From contig JAHAZJ010000166.1 in assembly GCA_018385315.1 (NCBI GenBank), positions 1 through 44,672 of the forward strand: 44,672 nt of DNA, given 5' to 3'. The notes beneath the pieces were generated by a model. The model searched no databases. It was not told the origin of the DNA and saw only the letters and a list, made by a program, of their open reading frames with translations. The position numbers and the translations under genes were made by a program. Positions 20,995 through 26,352 of this stretch are shown here, piece by piece. Origin of the DNA: Treponema sp. (GTDB taxonomy: Bacteria > Spirochaetota > Spirochaetia > Treponematales > Treponemataceae). Within the stretch, counting starts at the first letter, position 1, and every line of letters begins with the position of its first letter.

Positions 20995-21603
20995 TTATTT
21001 TACAAATCTTTGAGCAGGTGTTACAGTCCAGATTGCTCTTAATTCTGTGTCACCAATATTTTCCAAATGATGAGGAACTGCAGCAGAGAATGTTACGCTG
21101 TCTCCTTCATCCAAAAAATATTCTCTTCCTTCATAAGTAAGCTTTGCTTTACCCTGAAGAATTACACCAATTTCTCTACCAATGTGTCCATAAGAGCCTT
21201 TGTGTGTTTGTGATGCTGGTGGCAGAGTGATAATATATGATTCAATTGAGTTCTCTTTTGCAGATTCATTTGCTTTTGCAATTTCTTCATATATAATTTC
21301 ATCTTCTTTAACAATTGGACGCTGATCATGTCTTACAATTTCTACTGGACGAACCTTTCTATATTCTTCAAAAAGAAATTCCAGGTTAATGTCCAAAACA
21401 TTTGCTAAAGTGAGTAAAGTATCGATTGCTGGTGAAACATGATTTCTTTCAATTTGGGAAACAAGACTTTCACTTACACCTGCCTGTTGTGCTACAACTT
21501 TAAGTGTATATCCTTTATGCTCTCTTACTTGTCTTAATTTCTCTCCAAAGTGATAAGGAATGCGTTTCTGTTTTTCATCTTCAGGATTTTGCGAAGGTGT
21601 CAT
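20995..21603 (-). CDS. XRE-family transcriptional regulator with cupin domain
   Basis: Residues about 18-72 form a Cro/C1-type helix-turn-helix (LRQVREHKGYTLKVVAQQAGVS, SLVSQIERNHVSPAIDTL). Residues about 115-195 form a small cupin barrel (GREYFLDEGDSVTFSAAVPHHLENIG) that would bind a small ligand. This PuuR-like architecture is typical of repressors of amino acid, polyamine or sugar-acid genes. The ATG at 21603 has GGAG 9 nt upstream and overlaps the end of the preceding gene by 23 nt, so it belongs to that operon. Citrate synthase follows after 206 nt. The ligand and targets are unknown. Confidence 0.9.
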   Translation of the reverse strand: MTPSQNPEDEKQKRIPYHFGEKLRQVREHKGYTLKVVAQQAGVSESLVSQIERNHVSPAIDTLLTLANVLDINLEFLFEEYRKVRPVEIVRHDQRPIVKEDEIIYEEIAKANESAKENSIESYIITLPPASQTHKGSYGHIGREIGVILQGKAKLTYEGREYFLDEGDSVTFSAAVPHHLENIGDTELRAIWTVTPAQRFVK

Positions 21604-22654
21604 TGTTTTGCTTCTCCTTATTTTTTTGTGTTACAAATTCTATAAAGTAATCTTCTAGAGTTTTATGGGGTCCTTCTAAATGCATTCTGTTTCTTGAACG
21701 GGCGTTATCTCTACGAACTGTATAAAGTGAATAGAAATCACGGTAGTCTAATCCTGCATCGGCTTTGACGTGTTCACCAAGGAATTTAGAAACTTCATCA
21801 CGACCAATTGCTGGAATACCTTTTTCTCTAAGTATTCTACGTAATGTATTTATCTGTTCATAAGAAATTCCAAATAAGAATTCTTCCATTGCCTGTGTTA
21901 CACCAGTGTCTCCCATTTTTTGTTTAATAAAGGCAATCCATTGGTCATCCATTTGCATAGAAATTAATAAAAGTTCACTTGTTCCCATCATTGTTCCAAA
22001 AGCAGGAGCAAGTCGTCTTCTGGCATTCCATACAGTCTGCAAAACAGGTGCAACATCTGCAGAATTTGAGTCATTCCAATGTTCCCAAAGCAGAAGTAGT
22101 GAAAGTGCCCATTCACGACGGTATTCAATTGGTTGAGATGTATCCCGAATAAGATTTAAATAAACGTCTTCTACTAAAAGGGAAAACATAGAAAGATTTG
22201 TTTCATCTTCAAAAGGTTTATAATATTTTTTTAATTGCTCATTATGCTGGCAATATTTTGCGAAACTAGAAAGTGTGTGTATTTTTGAAACAAGAAGGCC
22301 TTTTCCAAGCATAGCTTTTGAAGGTAATTGTAAAGTTGGATCTCCATTATCTTGATGGGCGATAAGAGAATCTATTAATGAGCTGGGAGTTCTTTCTCCG
22401 CCTACAAGTTGATGTCTTTCCAATAAAGAAGGGAAACGTCCCATGGCTTGAGCTAGTGCACTTAAATCATCAAGGCGAGATTGAAAACTATTATATTTTG
22501 AAATGTCTATTTGTTTGATTTGTGGCATAAGTTCATTAATCAATGACTTCTGCTTTTTTGTCAGCATTTCATATTTTTCTTGAGGAGCAGCTTGTTGTGT
22601 AGATGTATCAAAAAAGGTTGAAAGATCAACCTGTTCAAAATCTTCTTGAGCCAT
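21581..22654 (-). CDS. unknown cytoplasmic protein, operon with the XRE-cupin regulator
   Basis: This is a 357-residue soluble protein without signal peptide, membrane segments or any motif I recognise. It is mostly helical, with an acidic N terminus, a central run of leucines (REWALSLLLLWEHWNDSN) and a basic patch near the end (YTVRRDNARSRNRMHLEGPHKTLEDYF). The ATG at 22654 is preferred to the GTG at 22663. It starts 12 nt after the stop codon of the TPR membrane protein gene and overlaps the regulator by 23 nt, so it bridges the envelope genes and the regulator. I would treat it as a lineage-specific protein of unknown function. Confidence 0.75.
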   Translation of the reverse strand: MAQEDFEQVDLSTFFDTSTQQAAPQEKYEMLTKKQKSLINELMPQIKQIDISKYNSFQSRLDDLSALAQAMGRFPSLLERHQLVGGERTPSSLIDSLIAHQDNGDPTLQLPSKAMLGKGLLVSKIHTLSSFAKYCQHNEQLKKYYKPFEDETNLSMFSLLVEDVYLNLIRDTSQPIEYRREWALSLLLLWEHWNDSNSADVAPVLQTVWNARRRLAPAFGTMMGTSELLLISMQMDDQWIAFIKQKMGDTGVTQAMEEFLFGISYEQINTLRRILREKGIPAIGRDEVSKFLGEHVKADAGLDYRDFYSLYTVRRDNARSRNRMHLEGPHKTLEDYFIEFVTQKNKEKQNNDTFAKS

Positions 22655-22666
22655 AATAATCACATT

Positions 22667-23635
22667 TTAATTATATTCTTCTATTATACTTGAAATATCA
22701 GTTTTTTCAAAATGAATTTTTTGATTTGCGTTAGAAATTATTATAAATAATGGTGATGCATATTCTTGGATTTTAGCGGCATTATATTCATATGTTTCTA
22801 CTTGTGCATTATAAATGTTACCTCTGTAAAAGCGAAGAGTTGGAGAAAGTTCAAATAATGAAAAATCCCACAGATTTAATGTGACACAGGAATATACACA
22901 TAAACTAATTAATGAACCGTTTAATAAGAAAGCGTTTAGTGCATCCTTATAATTGTGAGCATAAAGTTGGCCTAAACCTGGAATGAAAGAGAGATGGGCA
23001 GCAAGTAAAGGCTTTTTAGGCTTAAATGAATTGATTTTTGACAGCTGCTTTTGAAATATCTGAATATCTTCTTCAGAAAAAAGTTCGGGATAATCATTGC
23101 TATAGGTAGAAAATGCAGCGGATAAGGTTTCCCATTGGTTTGTCAGAATCAGATTTTTTAAATGAGCACAGCAAGCTTGTTGTTTAATTGCAAGGGAAAA
23201 ATCATCCAGATAAAGATATTTTGCAAATTCATAGTTTGTGTCTAAGCTTGTCTTTTCAGTAATGGCCTTGTTTTCTAAAAGAGAAATATGTTTACTTTGA
23301 AGGGCTTCTAACTTTGAAAAAGATATGTTTTCATCTGATAATGAAAGAGATAATCCCTGCTCAAAATAATTAAGTGCTAAATCCAGCTGATTGTTTTTTT
23401 CATAAATCTGACTTAAAGAAAAAAGTGCATCATCAATAAAATCACCTTGCACATCCTGGTAGTTTTGCATGAAAATGTATCTTTTATATTCAGTTGCAGC
23501 TTCCTTAATGGCCCCTGAATTTTCAAGATTTTTTGCCTGCTTGTATAAAAAAAGATAGTTATCTGTTTCTTGAGCACAAAGAGGAAAATTGTAAAATAAA
23601 AGCAAAAAAGTTAGAATTTTAGAAAGATTCTTCAT
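22667..23635 (-). CDS. exported TPR protein with C-terminal PGLGQLY membrane module (paralogue 2)
   Basis: A signal peptide (MKNLSKILTFLLLFYNFPLCAQ) leads to helical TPR-like repeats (about residues 25-190: AKNLENSGAIKEAATEYKRY, DALFSLSQIYEKNNQLDLAL). About residue 215 the sequence HLSFIPGLGQLYAHNYKDAL opens a membrane module with PGxGxxY and hydrophobic stretches (NAFLLNGSLISLCVYSCVTL), a pattern seen in DUF5683/TM2-like proteins. The neighbouring gene encodes a second protein of the same plan. The first codons overlap the upstream gene by 17 nt, so translation is coupled. The likely place is the cytoplasmic membrane with the TPR part outside; a partner of the YidD protein is an inference from context. 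Confidence 0.75.
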   Translation of the reverse strand: MKNLSKILTFLLLFYNFPLCAQETDNYLFLYKQAKNLENSGAIKEAATEYKRYIFMQNYQDVQGDFIDDALFSLSQIYEKNNQLDLALNYFEQGLSLSLSDENISFSKLEALQSKHISLLENKAITEKTSLDTNYEFAKYLYLDDFSLAIKQQACCAHLKNLILTNQWETLSAAFSTYSNDYPELFSEEDIQIFQKQLSKINSFKPKKPLLAAHLSFIPGLGQLYAHNYKDALNAFLLNGSLISLCVYSCVTLNLWDFSLFELSPTLRFYRGNIYNAQVETYEYNAAKIQEYASPLFIIISNANQKIHFEKTDISSIIEEYN

Positions 23636-24485
23636 AAACTAAATCCAAAGATTGGCAAAGATTCCTATATTGTGCATCATTGTAACGTTTTGCAGCTTTG
23701 TATGAACCATAAATGTCTGTTATGTACAAGCCCAATGCACAAGTTCCAAAAACGTAGGGTCTCCAGTCTTTCCAGTTGCTTTCAATCCCAGTGTAAAGGG
23801 TTCCCCCAATAAAAGATGTAATTGAAAGAAATGATGAAAGAAAGCTTGAAAAATTGCCAGTGTACCATTTTCCTGCTCCAGGAATAAGAATTGAAAGAGT
23901 TGTGGCCAAAGCTACATTTTTTTGACTGTAAGAAGTACAGGCTTTTGCAAATTTTTCGAATTGAGCATATTCGTGTAAGGCTTCGTTTGCTTTTATTCCA
24001 GCGTCAGAAATATTATATAAGAATAGATCTTTACTGATTACTGTAAGCAACTGAAATGATGGAGCATATTCTTCTAAATCTGTGGAAATTGAATCTATAA
24101 AGGAAAAATATTCTTCCTGATTACGTTCTTTAAAAATTAATCTTGCATTTGTGAAATCGACTTTTTCTTTTATATCAAGGGAAAGATTTTCTGAAAAATT
24201 TTTTTCCAGCCATTGAATCCCAGTTTTATCATCATTCTGATTGTAAATTGTTGTAAGAGTAAAAATTGATTGCTCTTGAATAAAGGAATATTCATTTTGA
24301 TTAATGGCATCGGAAAGAAACAGGGATTTTTTGAATTCACTTTCTGCTTCATCCCAAAAGCCATCCTCGTATAAACTTTGTGCAAAATTAAAAACAACCT
24401 CTGAATCGTAAGGCGAAGTTTGTTGAGCAAAGAAAGGGATGTGGAGAAGAGCAAATGTTAAGATAATATTAAAAATTTTTTTCAT
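23619..24485 (-). CDS. exported TPR protein with C-terminal PGAGKWY membrane module (paralogue 1)
   Basis: It has the same design as its downstream neighbour: a signal peptide (MKKIFNIILTFALLHIPFFAQQ), helical repeats (QSLYEDGFWDEAESEFKKSL, FTLTTIYNQNDDKTGIQWLEK) and, from about residue 205, TLSILIPGAGKWYTGNFSSFL followed by hydrophobic stretches (FLSITSFIGGTLYTGI, YVFGTCALGLYITDIY). The two proteins are divergent paralogues from an old tandem duplication. The ATG at 24485 gives a proper signal peptide; 15 upstream codons in the open frame overlap the YidD gene and are not needed. It begins 13 nt after the YidD gene stop. Confidence 0.75.
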   Translation of the reverse strand: MKKIFNIILTFALLHIPFFAQQTSPYDSEVVFNFAQSLYEDGFWDEAESEFKKSLFLSDAINQNEYSFIQEQSIFTLTTIYNQNDDKTGIQWLEKNFSENLSLDIKEKVDFTNARLIFKERNQEEYFSFIDSISTDLEEYAPSFQLLTVISKDLFLYNISDAGIKANEALHEYAQFEKFAKACTSYSQKNVALATTLSILIPGAGKWYTGNFSSFLSSFLSITSFIGGTLYTGIESNWKDWRPYVFGTCALGLYITDIYGSYKAAKRYNDAQYRNLCQSLDLVYEESF

Positions 24486-24498
24486 ATTTATTTCCATC

Positions 24499-25512
24499 CT
24501 ATGGTACTGGATCTGCATGGTGGTTGCCATTTACAACAGGATAAAGATTTCTTGAATGTTCATAGGAAGTACATCGTTTTAATCGTTCAAGTCCCATAAT
24601 AATTCCAAATGGACCATGTTTTGATACTGCTTCTAACATATATTGGGAACAGCTTGGTTCAAAAGGACATGCACTATGATCCTGCTTTGTAATGAATTTT
24701 TTGTAAAAAGCATAGCTTGCATTTACGGCCATCATCACTGTTGATGTTGTAAACTTTTCTACTTCTGGAGTTATGGCTTTTGATTTTTCAACTTGAATAG
24801 GACTTTTTTGTTCACTATCTTTTACCAGCAAAGTGGTTCCAGCATAATCTTGTTTTATTTGTTTATTAATTTTTACTTTTGAGAAAGTTAATTTTGTTGT
24901 TGCAAAAATTTTATCATCATTAAATGTGTATGTTGTTATTTCTTTAGGGTAGGCAATTCCCATGTAATTATCATATGCGTCTAAAATTGTTTCTGCAAAA
25001 AGACATTCTTCTGCCGTATACATCTGCAATTTTCGAAATCTTCCATTTGAATCAGAATAAACAATAATGCTTTCAAAAGGATGGACTCCAATTTTACCAT
25101 AACGCCATTTTGTAGCCAGCATGGAGTTTTCTTTCCAGTTTTCCCAAGGTACATACCCCTGAACTGCTAAATCGCAATCTTTTTTGAACCATGTTAAAAT
25201 ATCTTTACAGGTTTGCAAAAGTACTTCTTTACCTTCTGAATAATCGTAAAGAATGTCAGCTTGAATAAGATATGTTCCATCGCTATTTGAATAAGCAATT
25301 TGAGAAACTGGCGAAGTTGTTTCAAAAATGAAAATAGCTGGTGAAGATTGATAAACAATATGACCAGCCATTTTTGCAGATTCACCTGTGCTTGAAATTT
25401 CCTCCCTAATATAATCCAGTTGAAGTGTCTGGAAGTGGGAGGGTTGTGAATATAGTTTTATTGAAAAGATAAAAAATATTATTAATATGATTTTACATTT
25501 AGAAATGAACAT
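24499..25512 (-). CDS. exported LolA-like protein fused to a YidD domain
   Basis: A signal peptide or signal anchor (residues 1-22) is followed by a beta-rich domain (about 25-235; KMAGHIVYQSSPAIFIFETTS, DGTYLIQ) that resembles LolA-type lipoprotein carriers. After a charged linker, residues about 262-315 are an unmistakable YidD domain: FYKKFITKQDHSACPFEPSC, then SQYMLEAVSKHGP, GLERLKRC. YidD normally is a small separate protein that helps YidC insert membrane proteins at the inner face of the membrane. Here it sits behind an export signal, so either the signal is an anchor with unusual topology or this YidD acts outside. The gene starts 3 nt after the Cys-rich protein gene and has no clear ribosome site, implying coupling. 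The LolA call is weaker than the YidD call. Confidence 0.82.
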   Translation of the reverse strand: MFISKCKIILIIFFIFSIKLYSQPSHFQTLQLDYIREEISSTGESAKMAGHIVYQSSPAIFIFETTSPVSQIAYSNSDGTYLIQADILYDYSEGKEVLLQTCKDILTWFKKDCDLAVQGYVPWENWKENSMLATKWRYGKIGVHPFESIIVYSDSNGRFRKLQMYTAEECLFAETILDAYDNYMGIAYPKEITTYTFNDDKIFATTKLTFSKVKINKQIKQDYAGTTLLVKDSEQKSPIQVEKSKAITPEVEKFTTSTVMMAVNASYAFYKKFITKQDHSACPFEPSCSQYMLEAVSKHGPFGIIMGLERLKRCTSYEHSRNLYPVVNGNHHADPVP

Positions 25513-25515
25513 AAA

Positions 25516-25935
25516 TTAAGGAACATAAATTGGCATTATGTATTTAAGGCCTGCATCGGAACAAGTTTCTTGGATACATACATCAATTGTTTCTTCCATA
25601 CAGTCTTCCATGCACTGTTCAATTGCCTCTCCGGCACATTCTGCCATAAATTCTTTGCCACCCTCTGTAGACATTGTTGCCACTAAAACAATTCCACCAA
25701 CAACAATTACGCCACCCACAATTAATGATGTTACAAGAACTTTACTTGTTTCTTTTACAGCTGTAGAAGCAGAAAGATTTTCTGGTGCGGCAGTTGCTTC
25801 TACAATAGTTGCAGAAGAAGGTAAGCCGCCGCCGAATCCAGAAAAAGAATAGGTTGAAACTTCCTGTGCGTATAAGAGAGAGGAGAATGAAAAAAGAGTT
25901 AATATTGAAGTTATGGCAAAGATTTTCTTATTCAT
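25516..25935 (-). CDS. small exported membrane protein with Cys-rich tail
   Basis: The signal peptide MNKKIFAITSILTLFSFSSL-LYAQ is followed by a Ser/Gly/Ala-rich segment (FSGFGGGLPSS) and a transmembrane helix (about residues 68-88, VLVTSLIVGGVIVVGGIVLV). An acidic, probably helical tail carries six cysteines in the spacing C-x7-C-x3-C-x7-C-x4-C, within ECAGEAIEQCMEDCMEETID and onward. This could form a disulphide-locked helical hairpin outside the cell membrane, or bind metal. I do not recognise a family. It is the second gene of the operon, 12 nt after the TPR lipoprotein and 3 nt before the LolA-YidD gene. Confidence 0.72.
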   Translation of the reverse strand: MNKKIFAITSILTLFSFSSLLYAQEVSTYSFSGFGGGLPSSATIVEATAAPENLSASTAVKETSKVLVTSLIVGGVIVVGGIVLVATMSTEGGKEFMAECAGEAIEQCMEDCMEETIDVCIQETCSDAGLKYIMPIYVP

Positions 25936-25947
25936 AATATACTCTGT

Positions 25948-26352
25948 CTATTCAGACTTTATTTTTTCTAATTCAGTTTCAGGTATTTTAGAAATGCCTA
26001 ATTCAGCAAGTTTTTTGTATGCAGGAGGAAAAGCTCCTATTGGAGAAAGTTCATAAATATTCAGAATATCTGAAAAATTAACATATGCTTTCCTATATTC
26101 TTTTGTTTTCATGTAAAGATGACCCAATTCATATCTTGCTTCAATATATGTTTGGGTGTCATCGCCATAGCGTTTAATTGTTTCTAAGTAATAGCGTTCA
26201 GCATTTTCGTAGGCACCATTAGAATATTCGTTCTGTCCCTGCTGAAGTAATTGTGCTGATGATAAATCTTCTGGAATTTCTTCAATTGTTCCACAAGAAA
26301 AAAAAGAGAAACTTAAAAATAATACTGATAAGAATAATACTGTTTTCTTCAT
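25948..26352 (-). CDS. TPR lipoprotein (BamD-like repeats)
   Basis: A lipoprotein signal (MKKTVLFLSVLFLSFSFFSC) has a Cys at position 20 in a FFSC lipobox. The mature part is two to three TPR units (LLQQGQNEYSNGAYENAERY, ARYELGHLYMKTKEYRKAYV). The repeat style resembles the outer-membrane assembly lipoprotein BamD, but at 134 residues it is about half that size. It is the first gene of the seven-gene run ending with the XRE-cupin regulator. The upstream 127 nt are shared with the divergent galE and contain AATTGAA-AGAA-TTCAATT, a possible operator. Confidence 0.8.
   Translation of the reverse strand: MKKTVLFLSVLFLSFSFFSCGTIEEIPEDLSSAQLLQQGQNEYSNGAYENAERYYLETIKRYGDDTQTYIEARYELGHLYMKTKEYRKAYVNFSDILNIYELSPIGAFPPAYKKLAELGISKIPETELEKIKSE

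Follow-up and report, generated by a model that had tools for sequence, protein, structure and literature searches.

An exported LolA-YidD fusion of gut Treponema belongs to a conserved envelope gene set with TPR membrane partners

We analyzed a 44,672-nucleotide (nt) stretch of Treponema sp. DNA (GenBank assembly GCA_018385315.1, contig JAHAZJ010000166.1; hereafter the window), which contains a gene for an exported fusion of a LolA-type domain with a YidD domain. This gene lies between galE and the citrate synthase gene, in a run of seven minus-strand open reading frames (ORFs; 20995-26352) that an original prediction, made from the DNA letters alone, had read as a single envelope system. All seven ORFs were found at the positions given there, and the spacings that we measured agree with the tight packing it described (gaps of 3-13 nt and overlaps of 17-23 nt). 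The first gene encodes a tetratricopeptide repeat (TPR) lipoprotein and is followed after 12 nt by the gene of a small exported Cys-rich protein (CysR), after a further 3 nt by the LolA-YidD fusion and then by PG1, the first of two exported TPR proteins with a PGxG hairpin (PG proteins), at a distance of 13 nt if its start is the ATG at 24485 rather than the opening of its ORF at 24530. PG1 and the second such gene, PG2, overlap by 17 nt, and PG2 is separated by 3 nt from a gene for a soluble protein (gene 6), which in turn overlaps that of an XRE-cupin regulator by 23 nt. Hydrophobic N-termini of the export type were found on the TPR lipoprotein, CysR, the fusion, PG1 and PG2, in agreement with the five export signals predicted. 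Only the YidD part of the fusion and the XRE-cupin regulator scored above cut-off in Pfam and NCBIfam.

The fusion protein (337 aa; 24499..25512, minus strand) consists of a signal peptide, a LolA-type domain (residues ~23-228), a disordered linker (229-256) and a YidD domain (~258-337). The exported YidD domain (24499..24720, minus strand) was matched at residues 265-318 (E 3e-14), with 53.0 bits for PF01809 against a cut-off of 27 and 52 for TIGR00278 against 40, and it keeps the invariant cysteines of the C-x5-CS...RC pattern (C282, C288 and C314) as well as the C-terminal DPVP. In an AlphaFold2 model built from 10 fusions and 14 canonical YidDs, the beta-rich N-terminal domain is confident (predicted local distance difference test, pLDDT, mostly >90 over residues 31-220), the linker is disordered and the helical YidD domain is of moderate confidence; a solved structure of a YidD, sought by sequence, was not found. 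The N-terminal domain (24829..25446, minus strand) matched the LolA proteins 3buu and 2w7q in Foldseek (E 4.9e-11), and VIA Z scores were 14.9 to Porphyromonas gingivalis LolA3 (9tp6) and 13.6-14.3 to other larger LolA-like proteins. The fusion had no Pfam match to PF03548 (LolA), and a match below cut-off was obtained for its unfused homologue at L034. This homologue is a separate LolA-like gene directly upstream of an exported YidD in a genome of another Spirochaetota family (G104; hhalign 95.7%, E 8e-9), and it has a relative in the same place in an Acidobacteriota-phylum genome (G725, locus L348; 28%, E 1e-14). The predicted LolA-like/YidD fusion therefore stands, its YidD part by profile and its N-terminal domain as a confident LolA fold. 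Furthermore, both halves are extra copies, because a canonical yidD lies at rpmH-rnpA (contig C71) of the same genome, which also encodes a separate LolA elsewhere; the fusion itself is not in the rpmH-rnpA-yidD-yidC locus.

In the AlphaFold2 model of PG1 (23619..24485, minus strand), with a mean pLDDT of 91.6, a TPR solenoid leads into a C-terminal hydrophobic hairpin with the sequence PGAGKWY, and PG2 (22667..23635, minus strand) has the corresponding hairpin PGLGQLY. Two exported TPR proteins with PGxGxxY membrane modules had been predicted, and this was borne out, the motif being PGxG(K/Q/H)xY. A Foldseek search with PG1 returned generic TPR matches only, BamD among them and none at E <= 0.001, and neither PG1 nor PG2 of the window had a TM2 or DUF5683 match in Pfam. 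In a phylogenetic tree, PG1 and PG2 form separate groups across phyla, with a weak deepest split; the Treponema PG1 and PG2 (89% and 96%, respectively, in the Shimodaira-Hasegawa-like approximate likelihood ratio test, SH-aLRT) fall with their counterparts from Bacteroidota and G104, apart from the tandem pairs of most other Spirochaetota. CysR (25516..25935, minus strand), for which no known family matched, showed in an alignment of eight sequences one further transmembrane segment, an invariant YSxSxFGGGLPSS and a C-terminal P...P. It carries no lipobox and, where present, always lies just upstream of the fusion.

Comparison within the genus showed that the module consists of four genes, CysR, LolA-YidD, PG1 and PG2, and that the TPR lipoprotein, gene 6 and the XRE-cupin regulator are neighbors from an older, genus-wide locus, as follows from synteny in module-less genomes, from an inversion and a contig split, and from the positions of promoter-like sites. 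In genomes without the module the order is, with small exceptions, galE, TPR lipoprotein, a VWA-like gene on the opposite strand, gene 6, XRE-cupin and citrate synthase, and in carriers CysR-fusion-PG1-PG2 sits as an inserted block in this locus. Of 118 Treponema genomes, 114 have gene 6 and 10 have PG1 and PG2 at full length, the latter being nearly all near kin of the window genome as judged by gene 6; an eleventh module carrier (G081) came from our sample of the phylum. The full-length fusion is restricted to one Treponema clade, and its closest relatives in named genomes are all from Treponema metagenome-assembled genomes (MAGs) of rumen, omasum or horse faeces. Among nine other such MAGs retrieved by name, seven have the order CysR-fusion-PG1-PG2 and two have the same order without CysR, which is also missing in the carriers G081 and G323. 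The neighbors thus recur beyond one strain, as the original prediction had asked to be checked, and far more than chance would allow, and the nine MAGs and the 10 genus genomes rule out a single-strain oddity. The module also evolves fast relative to its flanks: identity to G081 is 77-91% in the flanks, 29% for the fusion, 42% for PG1 and 38% for PG2.

These data also bear on the original reading of all seven genes as one envelope operon under the control of the XRE-cupin regulator, which agrees with the tight one-strand packing in the window and with the same order, minus CysR, at two other loci (L177 and L185). Against this, the TPR lipoprotein, gene 6 and the regulator all occur in module-less Treponema genomes (the lipoprotein, for example, at L119-L124, L126 and L127); the opposite-strand VWA-like gene (420 aa) interrupts the run between the lipoprotein and CysR in most carriers; in G314 (locus L115) gene 6-XRE and the module block point in opposite directions; and in G333 the block is on a different contig from gene 6. 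In addition, gene 6 appears to have a promoter-like site of its own, since strong sites precede it in 11 of 36 loci scanned and precede the fusion in none of 11. In the window, such a site lies at 22710-22683 (11 of 12 matches), in a promoter and terminator scan that was overall at chance level, and five of eight carriers, the window not among them, have one 29-35 nt before CysR. We consider an operon of this kind very improbable and, on synteny, reject the seven genes as one system. What stands from the original proposal is a conserved envelope gene set around an exported LolA-YidD with TPR membrane partners; its seven-gene unity is not supported.

Regarding the neighbors themselves, the TPR lipoprotein (25948..26352, minus strand) scored 33.3 bits against the BamD model (OM_YfiO, TIGR03302), under the cut-off of 81.4, and was likewise under cut-off for the YbgF model. 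Gene 6 (21581..22663, minus strand; 360 aa) has no Pfam family, matches Treponema genomes throughout together with its flanks, and is paired in nearly all loci inspected with the XRE-cupin regulator (20995..21603, minus strand), which is matched by Pfam and NCBIfam and is outside the module as far as shown. The VWA-like protein (for example L122, 3120-4403, minus strand) is exported and has ~420 aa and a VWA match below cut-off. In most relatives its gene separates the TPR lipoprotein from gene 6 and runs in the opposite direction; the window lacks it at this place.

Beyond Treponema, the core of the module, an exported YidD (sYidD) followed by one or two PG proteins, is a conserved gene set in Spirochaetota, Bacteroidota, one Acidobacteriota-phylum genome and some Pseudomonadota; it is older and wider than Treponema and usually lacks a LolA partner, none of which the original prediction had noticed. 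PG proteins (E<=1e-12) were found in 93 of 247 Spirochaetota genomes. YidD frames of at least 112 aa adjoin PG in 38 of 72 cases and shorter, canonical frames in none of 77 (Fisher p 1e-15, uncorrected for kinship). At 20 further Spirochaetota PG loci, 18 of them tandem clusters seemingly without YidD, sYidD was found directly upstream in 18; of the other two, one ends at a contig edge and one (L264) has no sYidD within 1.2 kb. Overall, nearly all Spirochaetota loci inspected have sYidD immediately before PG. In Bacteroidota, sYidD precedes PG in all 20 loci inspected, and the Acidobacteriota-phylum genome has the order LolA-like, sYidD, PG1, PG2, a LolA-like gene being found at this same place in three lineages. 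The two components are joined in single proteins in one Spirochaetota genome (G037, L175 2852-3979, plus strand) and one Bacteroidota genome (G484, L293 1105-2307, plus strand). A simple score detected a signal-peptide-like start in 64 of 72 non-Treponema sYidDs, whose median extension is 55 residues, and the sYidDs of L172 and L173 carry a lipobox-like LPGC. A contig scan with the fusion returned 71 other loci with no PG-type protein beside YidD, and the YidDs read there were short and canonical; YidD was present in 10 of 14 control genomes searched. An IMG/VR scan with the fusion gave 122 candidate stretches, none of them confirmed, and hence no sign that phages carry it. Within the class Spirochaetia of the phylum sample only the two Treponema genomes carry PG, which, together with the grouping of their PG1 and PG2 with those of Bacteroidota and G104, suggests lateral gain of the module by the gut Treponema clade, repeated loss being also possible.

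Three side observations concern sYidD outside Treponema. The lineages at L169, L171-L174 and L276 retain CxxxPTCS but no longer have the RC cysteine, the third of the three in canonical YidD. A Borrelia P13-family membrane protein (PF05628, above cut-off; L175 2180-2797, plus strand) is encoded directly upstream of the Spirochaetota sYidD-PG fusion. Lastly, in G160 one frame (L170 3455-4924, complement) encodes an outer-membrane-barrel-like protein and an exported YidD in a single chain, which is either a real fusion or the product of a stop codon lost in the MAG.

In Pseudomonadota, a PG protein was found in 12 of 200 genomes, and all 10 loci inspected lie in type II secretion system (T2SS) clusters, with gspE or gspF-gspG accompanying PG in every case (T2SSE, T2SSF and T2SSG confirmed by Pfam). 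PG (and sYidD) could be an overlooked T2SS accessory in these clusters. As a reading of the module as a whole, an accessory of T2SS or type IV filaments that helps pseudopilins into or out of the membrane, or helps the platform to assemble, would account for this constant company and for gene orders such as gspF-PG-sYidD-gspG-gspH (L331 7274-10369, minus strand) and gspE...PG-sYidD-gspG followed by three more pilin-like genes (L339 7877-12518, minus strand). It is also in line with the co-occurrence of PG and T2SSG in Spirochaetota, where T2SSG was found in 63 of 93 genomes with PG and 42 of 154 without (odds ratio 5.6, confounded by kinship). Nevertheless, T2SSG was not found in the window genome (G000, 94.6% complete) or in G081, and a T2SSE-type ATPase (E<=1e-10) was not found in the window genome, G104, G488 or G372, so that the window genome comes near to a complete carrier devoid of T2SS or filament genes; moreover, the loci inspected in Treponema, Spirochaetota and Bacteroidota have no secretion genes beside the module. 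At the cut-offs used, T2SS is ruled out as an obligatory partner in the window genome, and these absences indicate that T2SS is one context in which the core is used and no requirement. We regard the accessory reading, taken as the general explanation, as unlikely.

We tentatively favor the reading of the module as an inner-membrane-anchored, periplasm-facing accessory machine that would handle hydrophobic clients. This reading draws on the adjacency of sYidD and PG, the LolA-YidD and sYidD-PG fusions, the LolA-like genes in the same position, the export starts, the LolA fold, the PG1 model, the extra-copy status of both halves of the fusion, the T2SS context and the PG1 and PG2 clades across phyla. 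The PGxG hairpin would anchor PG1 and PG2 in the inner membrane so that their TPR solenoid projects into the periplasm, and the two proteins may hold YidD at the periplasmic face of this membrane. There, YidD could act on hydrophobic clients such as transmembrane segments, lipid anchors or pseudopilin-like helices, much as its cytosolic counterpart is thought to act together with YidC at the inner face. LolA proteins hold lipoproteins by their acyl chains, and the LolA domain tethered to YidD in the Treponema clade might take up or cover an acyl or hydrophobic portion, so that release from the inner membrane would be coupled to delivery. CysR may be one of the clients or an adaptor specific to this clade. 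Contact with YidC and a role in inserting or sorting envelope proteins, both raised in the original prediction, are still inferences; cytosolic YidD is described, in a passage of PMC8082313 citing Yu et al. (2011), as aiding YidC/Sec-dependent membrane insertion.

Several points weigh against this favored machine. The molecular action of canonical YidD is poorly understood, and the topology of the PG proteins was read from hydrophobicity and the model. At eight of the 10 Pseudomonadota loci (gspE...PG), no sYidD is nearby. The fast evolution of the module (29-42% identity, flanks 77-91%) fits a surface-facing or client-specific system over basal machinery. Finally, outside the Treponema clade a LolA partner beside sYidD is absent in most carriers, which argues that lipid carriage is not the core function. 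The same distribution bears on a dedicated lipoprotein sorting pathway, in which LolA-YidD would carry a single cargo, such as CysR or a lipoprotein of the cell surface, and be unrelated to membrane-protein insertion. The LolA fold and the recurrent LolA-like gene in three lineages would suit such a pathway, and cluster-specialized LolA-type proteins have been proposed elsewhere (F. johnsoniae LolA2/LolB2 of the flexirubin locus, PMC11885536), but with most sYidD-PG loci lacking an adjacent LolA, and with CysR devoid of a lipobox and missing in two module carriers, we find it quite unlikely. PF01809 was formerly named the haemolytic domain, and a passage of PMC3573977 cites a report that the YidD homologue YtjA of B. 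subtilis lyses cells, so a lytic or haemolytic effector might also be envisaged; we consider this highly improbable, since a protein resident in the envelope would better explain the constant membrane-bound TPR partners, the lipoprotein forms, the LolA fusion and the location amid structural genes of the T2SS.

A wider form of the favored reading, which we put forward as a doubtful but conceivable extension, is that sYidD-PG1-PG2 might be a widespread machine for insertion or extraction from the periplasmic side, a mirror of cytosolic YidD/YidC with phylum-specific clients (pseudopilins in Pseudomonadota, other envelope proteins elsewhere), to which gut Treponema would have added a tethered LolA. 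The conserved order of the core in at least three phyla points to an unstudied envelope machine, of which about a third of the sampled Spirochaetota genomes carry a component annotated by Pfam and NCBIfam only as YidD plus hypothetical TPR proteins. A YidD lineage moved to the periplasm with the same two membrane partners across phyla offers a new route to test YidD function, and its partners, its fusions to LolA and PG and the T2SS context each point to candidate clients.

The component families are known and their assembly appears to be new: no description of an exported YidD or of an sYidD-PG operon was found in the open literature, subscription journals being outside the search. Among known systems, the Bacteroidota LolA2/LolB2 pair of the flexirubin locus shares with the module a LolA-type protein devoted to one gene cluster, although neither YidD nor TPR-PGxG partners are reported there. 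The N-terminal domain has the fold of the LolA/LolB superfamily (Z 13.6-14.9; nearest LolA3, then the larger LolA-like proteins 3bk5, 3buu and DUF1329 4z48), from which it differs in its low identity (~10-14%), in the lack of a Pfam LolA match and in being joined to YidD by a disordered linker. The PG proteins share the PGxGxxY motif with the hairpins of TM2, DUF5683 and DUF6677, with weak matches below cut-off in relatives, and the TPR fold with BamD-type proteins; unlike these, they combine signal peptide, TPR and hairpin, are paired with an exported YidD and, in the window, fall below every curated cut-off. Type II secretion operons of some Pseudomonadota hold PG, with or without sYidD, between gspF and gspG, whereas the window module has no T2SS genes nearby and its genome no detected T2SSG or T2SSE. 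Lastly, canonical YidD (PF01809/TIGR00278), the membrane protein insertion efficiency factor, has the same domain, the three cysteines, the GG...R..RC pattern and the C-terminal DPVP in common with the fusion, whereas sYidD is exported, extended or fused, and lies beside PG proteins, away from the rpmH-rnpA-yidC locus.

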